From a bacterium (lineage in GTDB: Bacteria > Pseudomonadota > Alphaproteobacteria > Rickettsiales > RI-342), in NCBI GenBank assembly GCA_016124905.1, contig WGMV01000007.1, positions 1-53,076 of the forward strand: a stretch of DNA of 53,076 nt, in the 5' to 3' direction. Below, piece after piece: positions 6,407 through 52,041 of this stretch (position 1 is the stretch's first letter; each line of letters starts with the position of its first letter). Made by a program: the position numbers and the translations under genes. Under the pieces are notes generated by a model, which was given only the letters and a program-made list of their open reading frames with translations, had not been told where the DNA came from and made no database searches.

Positions 6407-6555
6407 GAATATGGGGCTTTGCCCCATGCCCCACCAAGGGCCCAGGCCCTTGGATCCCGGTATTTCTTTAGACCCCCATGAATGGGGGTCTAAAGAAATA
6501 ATGGGGTTCTAGGGGCCTAGGCCCCTAGCAGGGTACGGGACGGAGTCCCGTATTC
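6407..6555. repeat. Five-hairpin dispersed repeat, copy 1 (diverged)
   Basis: Five consecutive hairpins fill the recF-gyrB gap: ATGGGGC/GCCCCAT (6411-6427), CCAAGGGCC/GGCCCTTGG (6434-6453), a perfect 19-bp stem at 6461-6500, CTAGGGGC/GCCCCTAG (6509-6528) and TACGGGAC/GTCCCGTA (6534-6552). The ends GAATATGGG and CCCGTATTC are inverted with one mismatch. The hairpin order and spacing match the copies at 49902 and 51886, while stem bases differ with compensating changes on both sides, most clearly in the long third stem. Confidence 0.85.
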
Positions 6556-49901: not shown

Positions 49902-50053
49902 TATGCGGGGGCGTTGCCCCCACACCCCCACCAAGGGTCTAGACCCTTGGATCCGTATTTCTTTAAGGATACCCCACAAAGGGGGGTATCCTTAAAGAAA
50001 AAGGGGTACAGGGGCCTGGGCCCCTGGCAGGGCGCGGGACAGCGTCCCGCATA
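49902..50053. repeat. Five-hairpin dispersed repeat, copy 2
   Basis: Hairpins: GCGGGGGC/GCCCCCAC (49905-49923), the perfect palindrome CCAAGGGTCTAGACCCTTGG (49931-49950), an 18-bp stem TTTCTTTAAGGATACCCC with its complement (49958-50000), CAGGGGC/GCCCCTG (50009-50026), and GCGGGAC/GTCCCGC (50034-50050). The borders TATGCGGG and CCCGCATA are inverted. It ends four bases from the recJ stop codon. Sequence is close to copy 3 except at the borders. Confidence 0.9.
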
Positions 50054-50056
50054 CCA

Positions 50057-51885: not shown

Positions 51886-52041
51886 TGACGCGGGGGCGTT
51901 GCCCCCACACCCCCACCAAGGGTCCAGACCCTTGGATCCATATATTTCTTTAAGGATACCCCGCAAAGGGGGGTATCCTTAAAGAAAATGGGGTACAGGG
52001 GACTAGTCCCCTGGCAGGGTGCGGGACAGCGTCCCGCGTCA
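51886..52041. repeat. Five-hairpin dispersed repeat, copy 3
   Basis: It has the same five-hairpin order as copy 2: a GGGGGC/GCCCCC stem, CAAGGGTC/GACCCTTG, the long stem TTTCTTTAAGGATACCCC with its complement, CAGGGGAC/GTCCCCTG and GCGGGAC/GTCCCGC. Borders are TGACGCGGG (51886-51894) and CCCGCGTCA (52033-52041), exact inverted copies. The right border contains the rpoN stop codon. The left border lies about 20 bases before the recJ start. Confidence 0.9.

Follow-up and report, generated by a model that had tools for sequence, protein, structure and literature searches.

In the text available for the sources cited, REPs are described as small palindromes of 20–40 bp that carry an unpaired tag, GTAG or CGTC, on one side (PMC3733652), and REP, BIME and REPIN sequences, which occur together with the REP-associated tyrosine transposase (RAYT), as mostly intergenic, palindromic, often arranged in inverted pairs and present in high copy in some relatives (PMC3733652, PMC2817692, PMC3116915). 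RepRanger, which in the accessible part of its description searches for single palindromes and mentions neither a two-hairpin unit nor covariation, counts 1,369 REPs in Lichenicola cladoniae, a member of the Acetobacteraceae (PMC12306157). Two further groups are covered by the available text of another source (PMC2229807): the CIR elements of Caulobacter and relatives, which are alphaproteobacterial, intergenic, about 110 bp long, composed of two inverted-repeat arms and a linker, endowed with a conserved GANTC and highly conserved between species, and the Rickettsia palindromic elements, which measure 105–146 bp, have terminal inverted repeats and long hairpins, and also sit in genes.

Here, we describe a DNA repeat of roughly 150 letters with five small hairpins that recurs between genes of a 2.36 Mb alphaproteobacterial genome (RI-342, Rickettsiales; GCA_016124905.1). 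The window, i.e., the whole stretch of DNA that was analysed, comprises 53,076 nt of contig WGMV01000007.1. The repeat shares with REP, BIME and REPIN sequences the features listed above, being dispersed, intergenic and arranged in inverted pairs, and its genome likewise encodes one REP-associated tyrosine transposase (NF047646). Unlike REPs, its unit consists of two hairpins, it bears no constant tag (the letters outside hairpins 1 and 5 differ between copies) and its stems diverge with compensation. The class, the intergenic position and the layout of arms and linker are those of CIRs, but GANTC is present in only 2 of 15 copies. Terminal inverted repeats and long hairpins are also found in the Rickettsia elements, from which the copies studied here are set apart, by description, through their intergenic location. 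The RepRanger set comes from an Acetobacteraceae host, the family in which the modules abound, and the REPs counted there may be these repeats. No description of this repeat family was found in the open-access literature searched.

Copies were located with two covariance models. R1 describes the full element and was built from a seed of four copies chosen for pairing in hairpin 3, as MAFFT alone misaligned this hairpin; R2 describes a module of 52 positions and was built from modules of the same genome. The features of the three window copies are compiled in Table 1.

Table 1. Positions of the repeat copies and of their hairpins and modules within the window.
Feature	Position	Strand	Context and basis
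Copy C7a, whole element	6409..6555	+	Between recF (stop 6387) and gyrB (ATG 6581); R1 164.4 bits; genes by NCBIfam
C7a hairpin 1, outer hairpin of left module	6411..6427	+	Sequence, folds
C7a hairpin 2, inner hairpin of left module	6434..6453	+	Sequence, folds
C7a hairpin 3, spacer hairpin, 18-bp stem, 4-nt loop	6461..6500	+	Sequence, folds
C7a hairpin 4, inner hairpin of right, inverted module	6509..6528	+	Sequence, folds
C7a hairpin 5, outer hairpin of right module	6534..6552	+	Sequence, folds
C7a left two-hairpin module	6409..6460	+	R2 68.1 bits
C7a right two-hairpin module, inverted	6502..6553	-	R2 66.4 bits
Copy C7b, 2 nt from recJ frame end	49904..50054	+	R1 128.8 bits; both modules by R2; recJ by NCBIfam
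C7b hairpins 1 to 5	49907-49921, 49931-49950, 49958-50000, 50009-50026, 50034-50050		
Copy C7c, between rpoN and recJ (both -)	51889..52041	+	R1 120.7 bits; both modules by R2; genes by NCBIfam
C7c hairpins 1 to 5	51892-51906, 51916-51935, 51945-51987, 51996-52013, 52021-52037		

All three window copies are real, and with pairing restricted to short range each folded into five local hairpins, as the initial annotation had proposed; C7a, the sole copy folded with DNA parameters, gave five local hairpins under these as well. The five separate hairpins did not hold in the unrestricted lowest-energy RNA folds, in which C7a and C7b each formed a single long fold-back of the whole element and C7c paired hairpin 1 with hairpin 5 while keeping hairpins 2, 3 and 4 local. 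Compared with dinucleotide shuffles, RNA folding of C7a, C7b and C7c yielded z-scores of -10.8, -8.1 and -8.4, respectively. The third stems proved perfectly paired in the window copies, as claimed. Of the matched exchanges reported for the outer stems, the one in hairpin 5 (TACGGG in C7a, GCGGG in the other two) was found in all three copies, while that in hairpin 1 was seen only in C7a, the copies at 49902 and 51886 being mismatched to the left of the G run.

Hairpin 1 is approximately the reverse complement of hairpin 5, and hairpin 2 that of hairpin 4, such that the element is an imperfect palindrome with a self-reverse-complement identity of 0.72–0.83 in 15 copies. The left and right halves can be aligned with each other after reversal of one of them. 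The recurring unit is thus a module of about 52 nt with two hairpins, present twice in inverted orientation, and the long third hairpin serves as the spacer. Within a module, an outer hairpin with a three-base loop is followed by a linker of the type ACCCC, an inner hairpin and then ATCCC or ACCCC; the inner loop mostly has four bases, and three in most modules of genome G575. In the RI-342 genome, R2 detected 31 modules, corresponding to 15 inverted pairs and a single one, and all 15 full copies are compact. By eye, the inner hairpins of copy C30 appear to have been swapped between the two halves, and ACCCC-type linkers recur both in this genome and in G575. Five hairpins as the plan of the family are therefore not supported: what recurs are inverted pairs of a two-hairpin module, separated by a variable spacer, and some G575 elements seemingly have three hairpins per side (by eye).

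The outer loops have a polarity with respect to the module. Among 144 modules, the loops GCT (48), TTT (30), GTT (27), TCT (17) and TCC (9) were recorded and their reverse complements not once, one GTC and one GAC being the sole opposed pair. Polarity was the same in 31 of 31 modules of the RI-342 genome, where all modules were included; in relatives it may have been recruited in part by R2, a model built from modules of this genome. Given this polarity, the element is not indifferent to strand. Among the inner loops of this genome, both orientations are found (CCAG 6 and CTGG 2; CTTG 3 and CAAG 1).

The initial annotation had called for a covariance-model search, which revealed further copies both in the genome and in distant relatives. 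In the genome itself, R1 retrieved 15 copies with all five hairpins and a half copy (C24), and BLAST retrieved 10 distinct places covering most or all of the element plus the partial C24; the five R1 copies missing from the BLAST list lie on contigs C41 (one), C16 (one) and C40 (three). R1 reads all 15 copies on both strands, because the element itself is an imperfect palindrome. As far as the frames tell, the copies are dispersed and mostly intergenic. The genes that NCBIfam names next to them are ordinary ones: recF, gyrB, recJ, rpoN, purB, murG, prfB, rfbA, glmS, cobT, yggS, radA, ispG, hisD, ruvC, mltB, rlpA, an RND adaptor gene and thiE. The distance from frame end to element is -2 to 21 nt for recF, purB, prfB, cobT, hisD, mltB and thiE, and the yggS and RND adaptor frames terminate within a copy. 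The yggS frame (L015:2045-2083) overruns its profile match by about 11 residues into copy C4, with the TAG located in the loop of an inner hairpin.

Several copies are flanked by named genes that run in the same direction (recF-gyrB, rpoN-recJ, purB-murG and mltB-rlpA), others by divergent frames (radA/ispG and ruvC/next frame) or by convergent ones (cobT/SDR-like frame). Copies within operons are presumably transcribed, and side effects on mRNA are likely. In the window, the recF stop codon is 193 nt ahead of the gyrB ATG; among 44 other loci, the recF stop and the gyrB match are 17 to 502 nt apart, with 40 of the 44 at up to 161, and R2 found no module in these 44 gaps.

The covariation expected if structure rather than sequence is kept was pronounced. 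In the 15 full copies, 683 of 719 cells in 48 pairs were Watson-Crick, 9 G-U, 14 A-C and 13 other. Standard pairs thus made up 96.2% of the cells, compared with a shuffle mean of 76.3, and none of 500 shuffles reached this value. Changes on both sides of a pair numbered 142 (shuffle mean 40.2) and involved 37 of the 48 pairs, and one-side changes numbered 5 (shuffle mean 43.2). A set of 140 distinct modules in four groups (144 matches in 90 loci at E 0.0005) gave a similar profile, with 97.0% paired vs. 79.7% in shuffles and 361 both-side against 3 one-side cells; structures slid along these modules were paired to 39–64%. Further pair types in the 140 modules showed no excess (29 vs. 30.1 in shuffles). 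These counts lean towards structure, since the R1 seed was chosen for pairing and the sequences were aligned by means of R1 or R2, and of the two controls, shuffles and slides, the shuffles leave relatedness in place. Pairing is nevertheless strongly supported, with compensation beyond both controls, and neither of the two outcomes that the initial annotation had named as refuting, an absence of further copies and an absence of significant covariation, was observed. Although paired, the hairpin 3 tips show no apparent relation from one copy to the next, which is why we consider that they were probably replaced whole and not base by base.

An RNA stem under selection tolerates G-U more than A-C. 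In the 12 inner pairs of the modules, we counted 4 G-U and 8 A-C in 1,677 cells (6 and 25 over all 14 pairs), and in the full copies without the three end pairs, 6 G-U and 8 A-C in 674 cells (9 and 14 over all 48 pairs). For 12 full copies taken in the sense direction of the flanking genes, the counts were 6 G-U and 5 A-C, which are small numbers, and the direction was assigned from neighbouring frames, some copies having only one named neighbour. As a yardstick, 12 tRNAs from other genomes had 19 G-U in 257 pairs bracketed by ARAGORN, so that G-U is far rarer in the repeat (4/1,677 and 6/674 vs. 19/257). Their zero for A-C arises in part by construction, as ARAGORN leaves mismatches unbracketed, among them at least one C-A (L049). 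With 1 or 3 A-C added to the tRNAs, Fisher p values were 0.0004 or 0.005 for the modules, 0.001 or 0.01 for the full copies and 0.013 or 0.08 for the copies in sense. This nearly pure Watson-Crick variation speaks, without being conclusive, against an RNA stem as the object of selection, and the paired changes, read from sequence, point more to DNA than to RNA as what is kept. The structured RNA implied by the tests that the initial annotation had suggested is accordingly not favoured.

With regard to relatives, R1, run with strict filters at E 1 and with 56 candidates scored per genome, matched none of 54 others belonging to the same family and order. In a class-wide sample at E 0.1, it matched 7 of 384 other genomes (8 candidates scored in each), strongly in G314, G217 and G385; the weak matches in G280, G360, G097 and G108 were left out of the membership. 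At E 0.001, R2 found modules in 98 of 150 genomes of the family of G385, including G385 itself (39 candidates scored in each), and in 4 of 9 genomes of the family of G314. Around gyrB (about 14 kb or less), only two weak R2 matches were obtained in 80 named genomes. In a quick gyrB tree, G385 clustered with Acetobacteraceae, and the RI-342 genome grouped weakly with G001 and a Rickettsiales row (long branches, support 81). R2 also matched weakly at 69 places in the 1.7 Mb genome G108, where the arrangement differs: the modules of the three loci inspected (L211-L213) point outward, about 175–180 nt apart, and this may be another hairpin repeat.

Most pairs in G314 and G217 have a spacer of 39–54 nt between module matches, one pair in G217 has 5 nt, and the four pairs read in G385 have 3–11 nt. 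Some of the longer spacers contain a weaker hairpin, and G575 elements have extra hairpins, three per side in L240 (by eye). The window copy had no BLAST match among plasmids and phages. The elements of the relatives matched plasmid DNA with one named host, the Rhodovastum atsumiense plasmid RHOApa, where a single module lies in a stretch without a listed gene, and another plasmid match was to a short Streptomyces stretch; further searches of this kind gave no match.

To what extent the element moves was judged from copies and sites. One G575 element has at least 38 further places in that genome at 84–94% identity (40 candidates scored), and the flanks of 20 G575 loci had no common BLAST match at E 1e-5. 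Recent movement in the RI-342 genome is unsupported, because its copies are only 69–86% identical to C7a by BLAST. At one site of G217, a module pair sits about a dozen bases past a stop codon and the orthologous site of its congener G583 is empty, although this single empty site could stem from a deletion; at another, G314 carries one module and G583 a pair. A comparison of G575 sites within its genus gave no clean empty site. In G575, within a 20 kb locus (L262, C1:5477500-5497400), synteny with congeners breaks at both elements, and the flanks fall on different contigs among the matches listed. No excess of flank repeats indicative of a target-site duplication was found in 15 own and 16 g198 copies, and 11 G575 copies gave a weak signal that was reached by 8 of 300 shuffles. 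Like a MITE, the element has terminal inverted repeats without coding capacity and a filled and an empty orthologous site, in one case with deletion possible; unlike one, it shows no clear target-site duplication.

At several orthologous sites, G314, G217 and G583 share the element, with a stem identity of 0.81–1.00 and 0.70–0.90 for the rest. The stems were more alike than the rest in 11 of 11 comparisons, although only stems that are perfect in one or more of the species had been selected. Summed over nine comparisons, with one sequence common to two of them and two more comparisons excluded for overlap, the changes came to 5 compensated pairs against 17 one-side changes (2 G-U, 7 A-C and 8 other).

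A search for the mobilising enzyme detected a Y1 transposase (PF01797) in two of five host genomes; no Y1_Tnp match was obtained in G314, G217 and G385, and that of G575 has no module within its locus. The one Y1 match of the RI-342 genome is the RAYT mentioned above (80.7 bits, cut-off 80), located 1.35 kb from copy C25, with no other module in its 3.2 kb locus, and lacking the flanking repeats typical of the REP/RAYT system. The flanks of this gene carry other inverted repeats and a sequence resembling a CGTC-type REP (L261, C25:70762-70959). Among the Y1 matches of the five host genomes, no enzyme could thus be tied to the element.

Several alternatives have to be weighed against these results. 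That the copies are structured RNAs within mRNA, acting as RNase-processing sites, 3'-end protectors or operon attenuators and covarying under selection for RNA pairing, is unlikely in our view. Copies between co-directional named genes are probably transcribed, RNA folding is extreme compared with shuffles, and REP hairpins are reported, in the available text, as mRNA stabilisers (PMC12306157); yet G-U is about as rare as A-C, also in sense (6:5 in 12 copies, small numbers with p of 0.013–0.08 vs. tRNAs), other copies lie between divergent and convergent frames, and Rfam gave no match in the window at the gathering score. It is improbable, too, that mutation without selection accounts for the pattern, i.e., that the copies are dead palindromes whose arms are homogenised by replication template switching, with functionless compensation. 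Template switching has been proposed, in the part of the source available, as a process that generates hairpins and maintains them, with compensatory changes arising instantly (PMC8794818); the paired hairpin 3 tips that look unrelated could hardly come from single substitutions, and inner loops occur in both orientations in this genome. The single polarity of the outer loops, the greater likeness of stems in all eleven orthologous comparisons (with the selection of stems noted above) and the recurrence of ACCCC-type linkers speak against it.

Bidirectional transcription terminators spread between genes would have strong G+C-rich stems, as seen here, and several G575 copies have a pyrimidine-rich tail after the last hairpin (by eye), but hairpin 5 of C7a is not followed by a T run and this copy directly precedes gyrB when read in the direction of recF, and the tandem placement at purB-murG and mltB-rlpA is similar, which makes this explanation very unlikely. 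Least credible of all is an insertion or recombination site for cargo genes, with modules marking the ends where foreign genes enter. In G385 (L194:1123-3348), a stretch of 2.1 kb with two frames of unknown function is bounded by two inward-facing modules, and in G314 and G217 the same gene, helicase-like by eye, and a module are followed by different frames (L196, L197/L264); against this stand the compact form of the 15 full copies, the lack of a recombinase among the L194-L199 frames (by eye) and the small number of cases. By eye, the differing frames of L196/L197 are AAA ATPase-like and PIN-like in one species, with a shared permease-like gene thereafter.

The explanation we favour, with a confidence somewhat above even, is a non-autonomous, dispersed, REP/BIME-like palindromic element of new build that is kept at the DNA level. 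The two-hairpin module, placed twice and inverted around a spacer, would work like the REP/BIME class: its hairpins would act as DNA, forming on a single strand during replication or as a cruciform, and an HUH/RAYT-like or other enzyme that acts on hairpins in single-stranded form would copy or move the element into gaps between genes. The arms may stay identical through replication template switching, selection for recognition, or both, and effects on mRNA would be incidental to what keeps the sequence paired.

A bolder proposal, which we regard as doubtful, is that of a class-wide selfish family in which the constraint is a palindrome plus a polarised three-base loop on single-stranded DNA, with some enzyme reading the shape of the hairpin and its loop. 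The stems would then drift freely while both arms stay Watson-Crick identical, and strong covariation would arise without any RNA function and mislead the covariation tests designed for RNA.

Conserved RNA structure is usually proven by covariation; here covariation is very strong in a large natural set of stems, and the pair types, with G-U almost absent and A-C no less frequent, point to DNA. The repeat offers a test case for mutation by template switching and a possible negative control for RNA covariation software. It is real, strongly structured and widespread in Alphaproteobacteria.
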